Notes under the pieces: generated by a model
The model's input: only the letters and a program-made list of their open reading frames with translations
What the model was told of the DNA's origin: nothing
Databases searched by the model: none
NCBI GenBank assembly: GCA_013202295.1
Contig: JABMRT010000246.1
Location: 1 to 35,188, forward strand
Direction: 5' to 3'
Length of the DNA: 35,188 bases
DNA from: Candidatus Zhuqueibacterota bacterium
GTDB lineage: Bacteria > Zhuqueibacterota > QNDG01 > JABMRT01
Position numbers and translations under genes: made by a program
Part shown: piece by piece, positions 14,767 to 35,188 of the stretch
How the letters are laid out: the number at the start of each line of letters is the position of its first letter
Numbering within the stretch: position 1 is the first letter of the stretch

Positions 14767-15087
14767 TTAGAATTTAGTGGTGAGCGTTAACAATCCACTG
14801 CTAACGCTTTGCTTACTGGTCATCAGATTGCAGCGCGAGGACGCACATACGGCCGAGCCAGAATAGTATTGCGTAAATCTCATACCCTCTCTAGCGAGTC
14901 GGTCAATGTGAGGTGTTTTGATCTTCTCCTGCCCATAGCATCCGAGTTCCTTCCAGCCGAGATCGTCGGCCATCATAAGGATGATATTGGGGCTGCGACT
15001 GGAACCTTTTTCGGACATTAACGATATTGGCAGAGCAAACGCTAAATTTGCCGCGGTCATATTCAACATAAATTGTCGACGATTCAT
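14767..15087 (-). pseudogene. Truncated sulfatase copy (N-terminal 90 residues only)
   Basis: The frame starts with MNRRQFMLNMTAANLAFALP and follows the full sulfatase (start 13536) almost residue for residue to about residue 91 (LMTSK), then diverges into an unrelated 14-residue tail and stops. The formylglycine motif is CASSR, not CAPSR. The similarity continues upstream across the ribosome site. With over 80 percent of the enzyme gone it cannot be a sulfatase; it is a partial duplication or the remains of a second tandem gene. Confidence 0.88.
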
Positions 15088-26219: not shown

Positions 26220-26965
26220 TTTCGGTCTCCGTTTGAATTTGTATTCATATAACTAAACCGTTGTGCATAATTACGTTTGATCATAACCTGGTCACATAAT
26301 TGCGAGAATATGGTTTCTATTCGTTTACAAAGTTTTCTAAAACAGCCAGATGTTTTTGATAGTCCTTTTGGTTTCATCTTTACAAGAGATAAGAAACACT
26401 TACGGAAAAATATAATCTAACCTGGATTATTTATAAATATCAAGATTAGAGTCCAAATTGCGTTAATTTTTAAAAATTTGCCTGATTTATCAGTCCGTTC
26501 AGCCATTTGCTCAGCCATTTTCAACTTGTCCCGGTCTTTTGAGATCCGGTCCATGACTTTGAAGAATTCGACATAATCCATAAAATGTCACGTATGAATC
26601 CTCCATCCATATTGGATATCACATCATCTTGGCATAAAAATAATCATAAGAAAAGGGATATTCAATCCCCGTTTCTGCTGATTTGATGGTTCAATGCAGG
26701 CAACCTGACGAACCTGGAATGGCAAGGTATTGTTAAACTGAAACTCTTGCTGAAAGATGGGATTGGGCACAGGCATATTCATAATATAATCAGGTTATTC
26801 TCAAGTGTTGCACTTACTCCTTGAATTCAGGTATCTGAACAATTGATATAAAAACTAAAATAAATCATCATGATAGATTCCTCAGTCCACGATTACGGTG
26901 ACGTAGCGAAATCGCTGACATAGCTGTTTTTACAAAGGTTCACCTATCAAAAGAGTGCATTAAAT
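26220..26965. other. Long intergenic region between the esterase and the ROK repressor
   Basis: About 745 bases. On the minus strand I see two doubtful stretches. One is a 54-codon frame (26417-26581) rich in Lys, Glu and Asp with a hydrophobic tail but no ribosome site. The other is a short frame around 26605-26665 ending GIEYPFSYDYFYAKMM, which looks like a C-terminal tail of a lost protein. The right part (26865-26965) has no clear gene. The promoter of the esterase must lie in the left part. Confidence 0.4.
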
Positions 26966-29787: not shown

Positions 29788-31152
29788 TCATGGATTTTTT
29801 GCTTTTTCTGCTCTTCTCTCGATTAATTCCTTTTCAATCTTTGACATTGTTTTATCATCCAGCTCATAAAAAACAGCAGCAATCGTGGCCACGACCAAGA
29901 GAACCGTTGGAAAAAAACTCATCATCAAACGAATTCCTTTGAGCGTTGTCTCGGATTGCTCAACATTGGGTACAAAACCATACACCGTCAGAAGATAACC
30001 CGCCAGACCGCCGCCAAGTGCAACCCCGAATTTTTGGGCAAACGTGCTTGCGGAAAAAATAAGGCCTGTGGCACGTCGACCATTTTTCCATTCAGAGTAA
30101 TCTGCTGTATCTGCATACATGGCCCAAAGCAGCGGACCCTGCGGCGCCATAACAAGGGAGATTAGAATATGAGCGGCAAAAACAAGGATGATTTGATCTT
30201 TTGGAATGAAGTAATACAGAAGCGTCAATAGGGACGTCAGCGACATAACAATCAGATATAATTTCTTTTTGCCAAGCATCTTTGTAAAGAATTGAGTGAA
30301 GCAAACACCCACGATGACAGCCACGGTACCCAAAACCATAAACAGCGAGGCTAAAATTTCATTGCCGATATAATATTTGAAATAGTACAGAATTGTACCG
30401 TTTCGAACGACAATGGATGCCAGAGTGAAAAAACCCATAAGGAGTAAAAATTTCCAGGGTCGATTGTGTATTAAATCATTTAGATCCTTCTTAAGCGGTG
30501 TCCTCTTATCAGTGGGAGGTTGAACTCGTTCATGGGTCGCTCTGAAGCTGAGGTAAAAGAAAATACATGCCATCACGCCGAATACAGCCATAGTGGCAGG
30601 GAATCCAACCGCCTGATTGCCCTTGCCGAAAAACTTTACCAGAGGCAATGTGGCTCCCTGAATAATGAATACACCCACAAAAGCCAGCACAAATTTATAG
30701 GTAGAAATACTTGTTCGTTCCTGAATGTTGGGCGTCATCACACCCATGAGAGCGGCAAAGGGAATATTGATAGCGGTATAAGCCATCATGATCAATGTAT
30801 AGGTGACATATGCATAAATGATTTTTCCGGTAAGACTTAAATCAGGTGTCATAAAAGTCAGCACACCGAGAATTGCCAATGGCCCGGATATCCAGATCAT
30901 ATAAGGACGGAATCGTCCCCATTTGCTCTTTGTTCGATCGGCAATGATACCCATCATGGGATCATTGATCGAATCCCAAAACCGCGAAATCAGGAGCATG
31001 GTTCCGGCTGCTGCTGCAGTAATACCAAAGACATCAGTATAGAAAAAGAGTAGAAAGTTGGTAAACATCGTCCAGTACAGATTGGACGCCGTGTCTCCGA
31101 GTCCGTATCCGATTTTTTCTTTGATTGCTAATTTGCCTGATGTCATGTTCAC
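29788..31152 (-). CDS. GPH-family sugar:cation symporter (MelB/YicJ-like)
   Basis: This 454-residue inner-membrane protein has about 12 hydrophobic segments and the typical motifs of the glycoside-pentoside-hexuronide symporters: GYGLGDTASNLYW at the N-terminus, FWDSINDPMMGIIADRTKSKWGRFRPY between helices 2 and 3, and AMYADTADYSEWKNGRRATGLIFSASTFAQKFG in the second half. It should import mono- or oligosaccharides or hexuronides with Na+ or H+. The start is taken as the GTG at 31152, five bases after GGAGG; an ATG two codons later is possible. It leads a short operon with the URO-D-like gene, and its substrate is probably a product of the surface hydrolases. Confidence 0.93.
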   Translation of the reverse strand: MNMTSGKLAIKEKIGYGLGDTASNLYWTMFTNFLLFFYTDVFGITAAAAGTMLLISRFWDSINDPMMGIIADRTKSKWGRFRPYMIWISGPLAILGVLTFMTPDLSLTGKIIYAYVTYTLIMMAYTAINIPFAALMGVMTPNIQERTSISTYKFVLAFVGVFIIQGATLPLVKFFGKGNQAVGFPATMAVFGVMACIFFYLSFRATHERVQPPTDKRTPLKKDLNDLIHNRPWKFLLLMGFFTLASIVVRNGTILYYFKYYIGNEILASLFMVLGTVAVIVGVCFTQFFTKMLGKKKLYLIVMSLTSLLTLLYYFIPKDQIILVFAAHILISLVMAPQGPLLWAMYADTADYSEWKNGRRATGLIFSASTFAQKFGVALGGGLAGYLLTVYGFVPNVEQSETTLKGIRLMMSFFPTVLLVVATIAAVFYELDDKTMSKIEKELIERRAEKAKNP

Positions 31153-31457: not shown

Positions 31458-32348
31458 TCAGGACAGTTCATCGCGGATCTTTTCCAGTAACTTCTTGGTC
31501 AGCTTGATGCCTTCAACCTCTGTGGGCTTTCCCTTATACTTGGGCGGTCGAAGAGAATCAAATTCGATACCTACGTAACCATGGTAGCCGGCGTCTACCA
31601 CGATCTTCATCATGCGACGGTAGTCCGTATAGATCTCGTTACCTGACGCGTCGAACTCAGCACTCTTGGCACTGATGTGTTTGGCAAAGGGCATCAGCTC
31701 GGCAATGCCCTTGTAGTGGTCGTACAGCTTACCATCGCCCAGGTCGAAGTTGAAGTCCGGGCCGAAGTCGGGCAGAGTGCCGCAGTTGGGTAGATTGACC
31801 TTCTTGATGACGGAAGCCAGCCATACGGCGTTACCAGACATGCCGCCGTGGTTTTCCACAATGACGTTGATCTGATCGCGAGCGCATAATGCGGCCAGGC
31901 TGTGGAGACCGTCGACTGCCAGCTTAGTCTGCTCGTGGTAATCTCCGGAAGGTGGGCAGGAAGCACCGAACATGCCGCGGATTGAGGAGCAGCCGAGTAT
32001 CTTGGCGGGTTGGACCCATTTGTAGTGATTCTCAACTGCCTTTTTCCGCCTGGCATCGTCTGGGTCGTCCAAGTGGCCATCCCTGTCGCCACTCAGGATT
32101 ATCAACCCTTTGACCCCGTTGTCGTCGGCCCGTCTCTTAAGCTCATTCAGGTATTTCATATCCGTGGCGCTCTTAAATGCCATGCTCCAGTATTCAACAG
32201 CATCGAAGCCGTTAGCCCTGGCGAACTCGGGGAAATCGAGATGGTCGAACTCGCCGCCCAGAATCATTGTGCGCAGGGATGATTCCGCCAGGGCGATTTT
32301 GTAGAGCATCTTTTTCTCCATGCCCATCAGACAGTCGCCCGCCACCAT
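31458..32348 (-). CDS. Sugar phosphate isomerase/epimerase-like TIM barrel (body of an interrupted gene)
   Basis: The open part encodes an AP-endonuclease-2/xylose-isomerase-like TIM barrel: HLDFPEFARANGFDAVEYW, then LIILSGDRDGHLDD, SIRGMFGASCPP, VIVENHGGMSG, TLPDFGPDFNFDLGDG, FAKHISAKSAEFD and YHGYVGIEFDS. The Glu, Asp, His and Glu of these lines fit a divalent-metal site. Such proteins isomerise or epimerise sugars. Upstream the same frame continues to an ATG at 32468 and would encode a Tat signal, but a TGA at 32400-32402 breaks it. If the protein is still made, the best internal start is the ATG at 32309 (MLYKIALAE), six bases after GGAG; that product would stay in the cytoplasm. Confidence 0.8.
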   Translation of the reverse strand: MVAGDCLMGMEKKMLYKIALAESSLRTMILGGEFDHLDFPEFARANGFDAVEYWSMAFKSATDMKYLNELKRRADDNGVKGLIILSGDRDGHLDDPDDARRKKAVENHYKWVQPAKILGCSSIRGMFGASCPPSGDYHEQTKLAVDGLHSLAALCARDQINVIVENHGGMSGNAVWLASVIKKVNLPNCGTLPDFGPDFNFDLGDGKLYDHYKGIAELMPFAKHISAKSAEFDASGNEIYTDYRRMMKIVVDAGYHGYVGIEFDSLRPPKYKGKPTEVEGIKLTKKLLEKIRDELS

Positions 32349-32468
32349 GGCCAGCCATAGGCCAGCCGAGAGGTTACCGGCAGTTGTTAAGAAGTCACGT
32401 CAAGTTACCCTGGTTATTTTTTTGGTGTTCTCAAAGATTGAAAGTTTGTGGCAATTCTTGTTAGCCAT
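32310..32468 (-). pseudogene. Tat signal peptide of the isomerase, broken by an in-frame TGA
   Basis: From the ATG at 32468 (AGGAG upstream) the frame reads MANKNCHKLSIFENTKKITR, VT, stop, then RDFLTTAGNLSAGLWLAM and continues into the isomerase without a shift (337 codons in total to the stop). A CGA in place of TGA would give the twin-arginine motif RRDFL followed by the usual hydrophobic stretch, so one C-to-T change explains it. Confidence 0.85.
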
Positions 32469-32515: not shown

Positions 32516-33559
32516 TTATCGCACCATGAGCATCGTCTGTGTTTGTGAAAATTCAGCAATTTTTAACCTGGAAAAGTAGACGCCACTGGGGTAATGACTT
32601 CCATTCCAATGATAGGTATACGCTCCGCCCTCCAGTAATCCTGATTCTAAAATAGTAACAATTTGTCCCTGAAGATTCAACACCTCCAATGTAACATGTT
32701 CTCTTTTGGGCAGTAAAAACTCGATAGATGTCGTTGGATTAAAAGGATTGGGATAATTGTTTCCAAGTTTAAAAGGATTGGGTAAACAATTACCGGACTT
32801 GTCGATTGTTGTCGTGTTTGAAATTAGTCGATATACTTTAAAATTATCATATCTCACATGGGTATTCCAACCTCTAAAAGCAAACCAACCACTTCTGCAC
32901 GGGTCTGTATCCCATTTTTCAAAGTAAAGAGAATCATCGCATATATATTGTATAAGACTGCTGTCGGGGCCGTCACAATAAACCAATTGTATTTTATGAG
33001 GAAATGAAGGTGTAATCAAATAATAGTCATCTTCTAATAAACCCCAACTAATTCTGGTTCCGTTACCGCTCATGTCATGTTTTTGGAAAGTCGTTCTCAC
33101 ATTACGTCCCGCACCTTTACCTACATAATAACCGGGTAACTTCCAATAATTACTAAAACTCCCCCCGCGTGCTGCACTATCTGCCTGAATATCATTCGGA
33201 TTATTCAAATCAGACATCATCCAGAAGGAATTTATATCAGAAACCGAGTCCGCTACTCCGCCTATGGGCAAAGCAGTTGCATTATACTCTATCATAACAG
33301 AGCCTTCAAGTTTTTGAAGGAACCAGACAGTGGTGCCACCATTATTTGGCCCGAATGTTGATAAATCTAATTGGCTGTCTATAATTTGTGTAGCACTGGT
33401 AGCAAGAACCTCTATCTCTGGACTCCAATTTGACAAATCACCATCAAAAGAATCTGAAAACAAGATTTCACCTATCTCATATTCGTCACTTTGCCATTGA
33501 GCATACAAACTGATGCTTGAGAGTAAAGCAAAGATGAGTAGCAATATTCTGAACTTCAT
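32516..33559 (-). CDS. DUF6250-like secreted protein with type IX-like sorting domain
   Basis: This 347-residue protein has a signal peptide nearly the same as that of the secreted protein at 24326 (MKFRILLLIFALLSSISLYA). The body (about 25-245) is a jelly-roll-like domain with LFSDSFDGDLSNWSPE, WFLQKLEGSVMIEY, INSFWMMSDLNNPNDI, YYVGKGAGRNVRTTFQ and GWFAFRGWNTHVRYDNFKVYRL, the layout of DUF6250, a domain frequent in polysaccharide-utilisation loci. The C-terminus (NNYPNPFNPTTSIEF, YPSGVYFSRL) is a sorting domain. No catalytic site can be named; glycan binding or cleavage is possible. The ATG at 33559 follows GGAGG by five bases. It lies between the two genes with broken Tat signals. Confidence 0.85.
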   Translation of the reverse strand: MKFRILLLIFALLSSISLYAQWQSDEYEIGEILFSDSFDGDLSNWSPEIEVLATSATQIIDSQLDLSTFGPNNGGTTVWFLQKLEGSVMIEYNATALPIGGVADSVSDINSFWMMSDLNNPNDIQADSAARGGSFSNYWKLPGYYVGKGAGRNVRTTFQKHDMSGNGTRISWGLLEDDYYLITPSFPHKIQLVYCDGPDSSLIQYICDDSLYFEKWDTDPCRSGWFAFRGWNTHVRYDNFKVYRLISNTTTIDKSGNCLPNPFKLGNNYPNPFNPTTSIEFLLPKREHVTLEVLNLQGQIVTILESGLLEGGAYTYHWNGSHYPSGVYFSRLKIAEFSQTQTMLMVR

Positions 33560-33608
33560 TTTTTCCTCCTTGTTCAAGATGTGGATAGCATAAAATTAAT
33601 GTTTAGCG

Positions 33609-34868
33609 CTATATTATTTCCGGGATTTCGTATTTTTTTCGAGCGATTCTTCGCAGCATCATGTTCGCCGCTTCATCATTAATAAATTTCTGTTTTTGAC
33701 GATCAAACTTAACAGAGCGGTTACCAGTTCTATAAGCAATTATTGCAGCCAAAATCATGGCTAACGCTTTATGAGCTATTCTAATATCGGCTGTCGATTC
33801 TTTTCGCGATTTGACACATTCAATAAAATTTCGATAGTGATTGGCATCCGGAGTTCTGCCATACATCTGCTCCACGACTTTGCCGCCAGATGTAACAACT
33901 TGCCAGCCACCACCCATACGTCCAATTGTCATCATTAATTCCGAGCCATAGATTTCAATGCGAGTAGCGTTCTGAGTCCAATATGGAAACTCATCATTCC
34001 GCCGAATTGTGGCGGTTGTTTTTTGCATATATCGGGCATAATTCGTCATTTCAAAGTTTAATATAAAGTCATCAAACATATAACTGGCAGCTTGAACATC
34101 GGGCACTTCAGCATCATCCTTTAAAATGAAACGTCCTCCTGACGAAAATATAGTCTCTGGCATATCCGGATCGCCAAGTACGGCCATGGCCAAATCTAAT
34201 TGGTGTATACCGTCGACAGTCGAATCACCATTACAATAATCCCAGAAATACGACCAGCCGTGGTTTTGGTTTATTAAATCCTGATGAAACTGTCGGTCCG
34301 GAGCGGGTCCCAACCAGGCATCCCAGTCAAAATCAGCAGGTGGATTTCCCGGATCACCAAGTAGAAAAGGGTTACCTGATTTTAAATTGTAGACCTTCAC
34401 CAATCCAATTTTACCCAGCTTGCCACTCAGAACATAATCTTTGGCTGCGTGAACATACGGAGCACTTCTATTTTGTGTTCCAACTTGAACAATCCGATTA
34501 TATTTTTTGGCCGCTTCCACCATTTTATTACTTTCCCAAATGGAATACGCATGTGGTTTCTCAACATACACATCCTTACCAGCTTGACAAGCCAATACAG
34601 AAGGAAGTGCATGCCAATGATCGGGTGTGACAACTGCAACTGCGTCGATATCTTTGTCATCAAAAATGTGACGCATATCTTTGACGCGTTTAGGACTTTG
34701 TGACTGGACATCTTTGAGGAATTCTTCAAGACTTGCCATTTTATTCTCTTCCAGGTCACAAATATAAGCAAGGTTGGCTCCTTGTTCAATAAGTCCTCGT
34801 GCTACAAATCTTCCTCTTAATCCACATCCGATCAAGGCAAAATTGACTCTTTCATTCGCACCCATCAC
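33609..34868 (-). CDS. Gfo/Idh/MocA-family oxidoreductase (body of an interrupted gene)
   Basis: The open part encodes an NAD(P)-dependent sugar oxidoreductase: Rossmann motif VNFALIGCGLRGRF, IDAVAVVTPDHWHALPSVLACQAGKDVYVEKPH (with the family EKP), IVQVGTQNRS, DFDWDAWLGPAP, and the WDYCNGDSTVDGIHQLDLA line supplying the catalytic Asp and His. It is of the type normally exported by Tat and found beside secreted hydrolases. The frame continues upstream to an ATG at 34967 with a twin-arginine signal, but a TAA at 34929-34931 breaks it. The possible internal starts (GTG 34868, ATG 34865) have no ribosome site. A decayed second copy of the 3' end is at 19985-20123. Confidence 0.85.
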   Translation of the reverse strand: MMGANERVNFALIGCGLRGRFVARGLIEQGANLAYICDLEENKMASLEEFLKDVQSQSPKRVKDMRHIFDDKDIDAVAVVTPDHWHALPSVLACQAGKDVYVEKPHAYSIWESNKMVEAAKKYNRIVQVGTQNRSAPYVHAAKDYVLSGKLGKIGLVKVYNLKSGNPFLLGDPGNPPADFDWDAWLGPAPDRQFHQDLINQNHGWSYFWDYCNGDSTVDGIHQLDLAMAVLGDPDMPETIFSSGGRFILKDDAEVPDVQAASYMFDDFILNFEMTNYARYMQKTTATIRRNDEFPYWTQNATRIEIYGSELMMTIGRMGGGWQVVTSGGKVVEQMYGRTPDANHYRNFIECVKSRKESTADIRIAHKALAMILAAIIAYRTGNRSVKFDRQKQKFINDEAANMMLRRIARKKYEIPEII

Positions 34869-34967
34869 ATTCGTCGGGTTAAATATTTGTGCCTCATGAG
34901 CCAGTAATGCCCCAGCTGTAATTTTAGCTTAATTTGATAAGAAATTACGTCTATTGATTTGTTTCAT
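34869..34967 (-). pseudogene. Tat signal peptide of the Idh oxidoreductase, broken by an in-frame TAA
   Basis: From the ATG at 34967 (GGAG upstream) the frame reads MKQINRRNFLSN, a TAA stop, then AKITAGALLAHEAQIFNPTN and on into the oxidoreductase without a shift (453 codons in total). NRRNFL is a clear twin-arginine motif, so the stop lies at the start of the hydrophobic part of the signal. The ATG overlaps the TGA of the fragment upstream (ATGA). Confidence 0.85.
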
Positions 34968-35073
34968 TTTGAATTTCTCCAAATTTTAGTAGCGTGGATT
35001 TCATCAACATTTTCTTTAATAATAATTAAAGCCCATCCATCGAAACTAGAGCTAAACATAAACTTGATTTCAT
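34964..35073 (-). pseudogene. 3' end of a gene cut off by the insertion-sequence end
   Basis: The minus strand from about 35073 reads NEIKFMFSSSFDGWALIIIK, then ENVDEIHATKIWRNSK and TGA. The stop overlaps the ATG of the Tat-type oxidoreductase, the spacing expected of genes in one operon. The frame ends on the upstream side where the putative insertion sequence begins. The family cannot be told from about 36 residues. Confidence 0.55.
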
Positions 35074-35188
35074 TAGTGTCCGGTTAAAACATTAAAAAAC
35101 AAATAAAAAAGGCCCGATTAACCTCAAAAATTGTTATATTTTATTGCCCATAAACTATAACAAAACAGGAGGTTGTCAGGCCATGAAA
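35074..35188 (+). mobile_element. Putative left end of an insertion sequence with the start of its transposase
   Basis: The stretch begins with TAGTGTCCGGTTAAAAC, a sequence like the terminal repeat of IS4-type elements found in many FCB and proteobacterial genomes. It ends with a plus-strand AGGAGG (35167-35172), ten bases and an ATG at 35183, the only plus-strand gene start with a good ribosome site in the window. The transposase itself lies beyond the edge, so the family cannot be confirmed. Confidence 0.5.

Follow-up and report, generated by a model that had tools for sequence, protein, structure and literature searches.

Stop codons inside the Tat signals of two neighboring enzyme genes suggest recent decay of a predicted sugar-oxidation operon beside a probable IS4-type element

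The DNA analyzed here is a contig of 35,188 nucleotides from a Candidatus Zhuqueibacterota genome, referred to below as the window. Close to its end, the minus strand carries a gene for a Gfo/Idh/MocA oxidoreductase (33609..34967) that opens with an interrupted twin-arginine (Tat) signal. Read from the ATG at 34967-34965, the gene specifies a Tat precursor of 452 codons, premature stop included, with the N-terminus MKQINRRNFLSN-TAA-AKITAGALLAHEAQIFNPTNVMGANERVNFALIGCG. The in-frame TAA (34931-34929, minus strand) is codon 13 and lies at the junction of RRNFLSN and AKITAGALL, after which 439 codons remain open until the frame closes at TAA 33611-33609. Thus, an uninterrupted twin-arginine signal with its hydrophobic stretch is lacking, since RRNFLSN is followed directly by the stop. 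The remnant of the signal region (34869..34967, minus strand) retains its ATG, and because this is preceded by a Shine-Dalgarno match (TTTGGAGAAATTCAAA-ATG; duplex of -6.4 kcal/mol, with GGAG 9 bases before the ATG), we regard 34967 as a credible start. The enzyme body has both domains expected of the family, a Rossmann NAD-binding domain (PF01408, 3.3e-16) and a C-terminal alpha/beta domain (PF19051, 2.6e-18), each above the Pfam cut-off. It also keeps the EKP lysine motif (YVEKPHAYS), which aligns with the EKP of 8tdf. In a search of solved structures, the nearest chains were 8tdf ("Dehydrogenase") and 8tdh, while the glucuronide-3-dehydrogenase 8tdi was a weak match.

A second interrupted Tat precursor lies two genes on from the oxidoreductase. 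This xylose-isomerase-like TIM-barrel gene (31458..32468, minus strand; PF01261) starts at ATG 32468 and has an in-frame TGA at 32402-32400, which is codon 23 and occupies an arginine position of the Tat motif; translation shows the frame to be open afterward. Both stops, and the open enzyme frame behind the first, had been noted in a first-pass annotation, and translation bears them out. Between the two broken genes is an intact gene for a DUF6250 protein with a Sec-type signal and a T9SS sorting tail (32516..33577, minus strand; PF19763, PF18962). Beyond the isomerase, an MFS_2 (GPH-type) sugar transporter is likewise intact (29788..31152, minus strand; PF13347). The oxidoreductase, DUF6250, and isomerase genes form a predicted small operon, for which we infer both the operon structure and the class of substrate. 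In the fetched stretches, relatives of the oxidoreductase with 50 to 65% identity had no clear isomerase or transporter homologues alongside, and the gene order of the operon is thus not preserved in those stretches. Elsewhere in the window, some 740 bp between a carboxylesterase and a ROK regulator (26225-26960) hold no recognizable gene and are possibly an old remnant.

Comparison with homologues indicates that the signals are ancestral. The signal was uninterrupted, and comparably spaced from the Rossmann fold, in 29/29 fetched homologues of the oxidoreductase (approximately 31 to 64% identity), with RR in 28 of them and KR in one; none has the TAA. For the isomerase, an intact signal could be read in 17 of 18 homologues, the N-terminus of the remaining one being unreadable. 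The upstream stretches of both window genes align as twin-arginine signals with all readable homologues and are therefore not a chance reading of an intergenic frame. Judged from these alignments, both stops are private to the genome and derived, and the oxidoreductase has the form of a nonsense pseudogene, namely homologous upstream coding sequence cut by a stop that its homologues lack. No close strains were found among 99 relatives or in the genome collection searched, from which records very near the window were possibly left out. Two homologues in other genomes contain stops elsewhere. One (L020, G078:C616:2727-3956) has one TAA inside the matched region and an intact signal. The other, an isomerase homologue (L169, G043:C117:127161-127676), has many stops ahead of its match, which starts at residue 103, and may be a further decayed copy.

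The sequence past both stops can still be read as a normal hydrophobic signal, as would be expected if the stops were read through or recoded to yield the full Tat precursor. Yet readthrough would have to cover TAA as well as TGA, the oxidoreductase frame closes at a TAA of its own, and no homologue has a stop at either position; we regard readthrough as extremely improbable. In view of the two different stop codons and the termination of normal genes in TAA, we also reject an alternative genetic code or a suppressor.

From the two interrupted signals, the first-pass annotation had proposed selection against Tat export or recent parallel decay. The rest of the genome argues against the former. 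The check that it recommended, for intact tat genes and other Tat substrates, recovered TatC and two TatA/B proteins, along with 57 uninterrupted signals, nearly all on long frames. The profile search behind the latter figure inherently favors intact signals, and a count by enzyme body is less biased. Among the 37 Gfo/Idh matches in the genome, the Tat signal is intact in at least 21 others (18 by direct reading and 3 through profile matches in the same frames), and it is likewise intact in 6 others among the 16 TIM-barrel matches. In these families, stops within Tat signals were found only in the two window genes, and the 27 other Tat-type members are intact. Neither the tat genes nor the other Tat signals have been lost. 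Given the Tat genes, the 57 signals, and the 27 intact family members, we conclude that Tat export is not being lost, and we reject genome-wide selection against it. On three other contigs of the genome (C177, C35, and C218), Tat-type Gfo/Idh genes occur in several clusters of two to four, accompanied by TIM-barrel genes, and the genome is, as far as prediction goes, rich in periplasmic sugar oxidoreductase sets.

Nor is the damage strictly focused on export signals, as had been supposed. The window contains a third broken gene, a truncated sulfatase duplicate (14767..15087, minus strand; PF00884, 1-96, with a TGA and a TAA read through). It begins with an intact twin-arginine sequence (MNRRQFMLN), has a body that is broken after about 99 codons, and reads CASSR in place of the CAPSR form of the CxPSR sulfatase motif. 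Compared with the intact copy at 13536-12046, which has a twin-arginine motif and a signal free of stops, the fragment shows 89% DNA identity over 297 bp, where the match ends. In the fragment it is the body that is broken while the signal is intact, which marks the damage as a property of the locus rather than of export signals. The earlier claim that two Tat-type enzymes of the locus have stops in their signals holds for the two genes named, but its list was incomplete, as it omitted two twin-arginine sulfatases without such a stop. Among the 37 Gfo/Idh, 16 TIM-barrel, and 16 sulfatase matches of the genome, only 3 broken copies were found, all of them among the window's 4 members, a comparison that is post hoc in that these families were chosen for having members in the window. 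In the same genome, none of 46 ABC-transporter matches contained an in-frame stop. If one nonsense mutation were to strike each gene at random, it would fall inside the signal with a probability of 0.059 in the oxidoreductase and 0.123 in the isomerase, or about 0.7% for both together (post hoc). We treat this figure as a mild, suggestive hint because stops near the start are also the most easily tolerated.

It could be argued that one or two consensus bases are wrong, or represent a minority allele, owing to base calling, assembly, or a mixture of strains. The genome is available as a draft in 303 contigs, the records related to it are metagenome bins, and the TAA lies approximately 140 bp from a repeat junction where the contig ends. 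However, two independent substitution errors in a single operon, both creating in-frame stops, are improbable. No stops occur in the 27 other Tat-type copies of both families or in the ABC-transporter matches, and no error of the indel type was seen. We therefore consider an artifact unlikely.

The repeat in question is the start of a multicopy element, probably of IS4 type (DUF4372 transposase family; 35070..35188, plus strand). It sets in some 100 bp ahead of the oxidoreductase ATG, points away from that gene, and is cut off by the contig end. From 35070 onward, the window matches six other sites in the genome at 99 to 100%, all at or near contig ends, together with one copy at 74% on another contig. 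That these copies are nearly identical points to recent spread. At least seven such ends coincide with contig ends or lie close to them, which indicates that the element fragments the assembly. The shared stretch opens with TTAGTGTCCGGTTAAAAC and extends to the start codon of an outward-facing gene. The contig of the window stops short of the transposase body, and DUF4372 was detected only in the degenerate 74% copy (L046, G000:C20:16220-16442), where the domain (PF14294) directly follows the homologous stretch and is interrupted by TAG. DUF4372 is typical of some IS4-family transposases. A scan for a sigma-70-like promoter on the minus strand upstream of 34967 found none, which is weak evidence given that promoters in this phylum may differ. 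The case for a role of the element in the decay is circumstantial.

How long ago the lesions arose can be gauged from the enzyme bodies. In the oxidoreductase tree, the window gene has a root-to-tip distance of 0.47, where the homologues span 0.45 to 0.84. Of the 98 columns that are otherwise invariant, it departs at 6, which is within the homologue range of 0 to 8. Its body has no extra stop and no frameshift. A body that is not accelerated in this way speaks against any long period without constraint. In the isomerase tree, no end branch is longer than that of the window gene (0.70), although its root-to-tip distance of 0.92 is inside the homologue range. This gene departs at 12 of the 75 columns that are otherwise invariant, as against 0 to 3 in the others. 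It is either a divergent member of the family or under weaker constraint. Neutral decay of the enzyme bodies in related strains, which the first-pass annotation had named as an observation that would count against it, was addressed at the level of a tree of homologues, where the oxidoreductase body shows no long-term acceleration and the isomerase body has the longest branch. From the fraction of changes that would yield stops, and assuming indels at 10% of substitutions, we estimated that with neutral divergence above roughly 2%, the oxidoreductase body should show additional lesions. For this reason, either the gene was lost recently or its body remains in use.

Continued use is the basis of a different scenario, in which both enzymes are kept and made in the cytoplasm from internal starts (GTG/ATG 34868/34865 for the oxidoreductase and ATG 32348 for the isomerase). 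Their substrates would be sugars imported by the adjacent MFS_2 transporter, and loss of export would be tolerated or favored. The internal starts sit right at the onset of the Rossmann fold and the TIM barrel and would give complete domains; moreover, the bodies are open, the oxidoreductase shows neither an accelerated branch nor unusual deviation at invariant columns, and both stops fall within signals. However, translation from these starts looks inefficient. The first possible starts in the oxidoreductase, a GTG and an ATG (34863..34868, minus strand) 60 and 63 nt past the TAA, have no Shine-Dalgarno sequence and score +0.1 kcal/mol, compared with about -6 to -9 at most other window starts tested. 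The isomerase ATG, 51 nt past its TGA, has a weak match (-3.5). Bacteria commonly reinitiate translation, which is considered mainly over short distances. According to a review, more than 75% of intercistronic distances in Escherichia coli are under 30 nt (PMC5972666). Reinitiation after early stops has been described in a eukaryotic system (PMC4648390), which we do not take as evidence here. Based on these features, some leftover cytoplasmic enzyme is possible, and efficient production from internal starts is not suggested. In addition, the old ATG keeps a good ribosome-binding site and would waste initiation, the intervening DUF6250 protein retains its export signal, such that the pathway would be split between compartments, and the isomerase combines its many deviations with the longest end branch. 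Cytoplasmic retention of both enzymes is thus decidedly unlikely, and we would rate even lower, as quite improbable, a parallel move of both in a single lineage through stops in their Tat signals and new internal starts, by which a periplasmic pathway would have become a cytoplasmic one.

The reading that we prefer, with a probability of roughly 0.6, is recent, ongoing decay of a predicted periplasmic sugar-oxidation operon beside an IS element. It is favored by the private stops, the intact Tat system, the restriction of broken copies to the window, the IS end, and an internal start without a Shine-Dalgarno sequence. Against it stand the low joint chance of both stops falling in signals and the fully open enzyme bodies, although an open oxidoreductase body with a normal branch length is also what a young lesion would leave. 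In relatives, both Tat enzymes would be exported to the periplasm, where they would oxidize and rearrange sugars. In this genome, a recent loss-of-function mutation probably hit the first gene of the operon. Ribosomes would initiate at the old ATG and terminate after 12 codons, leaving little or no exported enzyme, and premature termination may reduce expression of both downstream genes by polarity. The IS4-type insertion may have severed the operon from its promoter and so have either begun the decay or followed it. Because the isomerase also carries a nonsense codon and a sulfatase copy is truncated, we infer that the operon and part of its neighborhood are under relaxed selection; the order of events and the loss of expression are likewise reconstructions. 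Of the two explanations raised at the outset, it is therefore recent parallel decay that gains support, from the private stops, the third broken gene, and intact Tat export. Cytoplasmic switching and consensus error are the live rivals to it.

Seen as decay, the locus is ordinary, being another instance of IS-associated gene loss at the level of a locus. Its setting is an uncultured phylum that has been little studied and in which sugar oxidoreductases exported by Tat are very numerous. Should the cells still be producing the enzymes, now in the cytoplasm, the locus would represent natural compartment switching through nonsense mutation. The oxidoreductase, DUF6250 protein, and TIM barrel of the window resemble periplasmic glycoside-oxidation gene sets, in which a Gfo/Idh dehydrogenase is found with TIM-barrel and lectin-like hydrolase partners, and the nearest solved chains (8tdf and 8tdh), with the weak match to 8tdi, fit this putative analogy. 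By the Pfam search, DUF6250 differs from the known hydrolase family of such sets, and the activity here is putative; a search of a literature collection on a 3-keto-glycoside pathway with DUF1080 yielded nothing directly usable. Glucose-fructose oxidoreductase, a Tat-exported Gfo/Idh/MocA precursor whose structure (PDB 1h6a) was matched by the oxidoreductase, shares the PF01408 fold family and the Tat signal found in all homologues, but the signal in the window is broken by TAA and the nearest chains are dehydrogenases rather than this enzyme. As for the mode of decay, pseudogenes of Sodalis glossinidius (PMC7067036) and Shigella (PMC7373316) are many, whereas only the window was seen to be affected in the families sampled here. 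What the locus shares with these genomes is single nonsense substitutions in otherwise open genes, expansion of IS elements, and decay that is clustered in a dispensable function.
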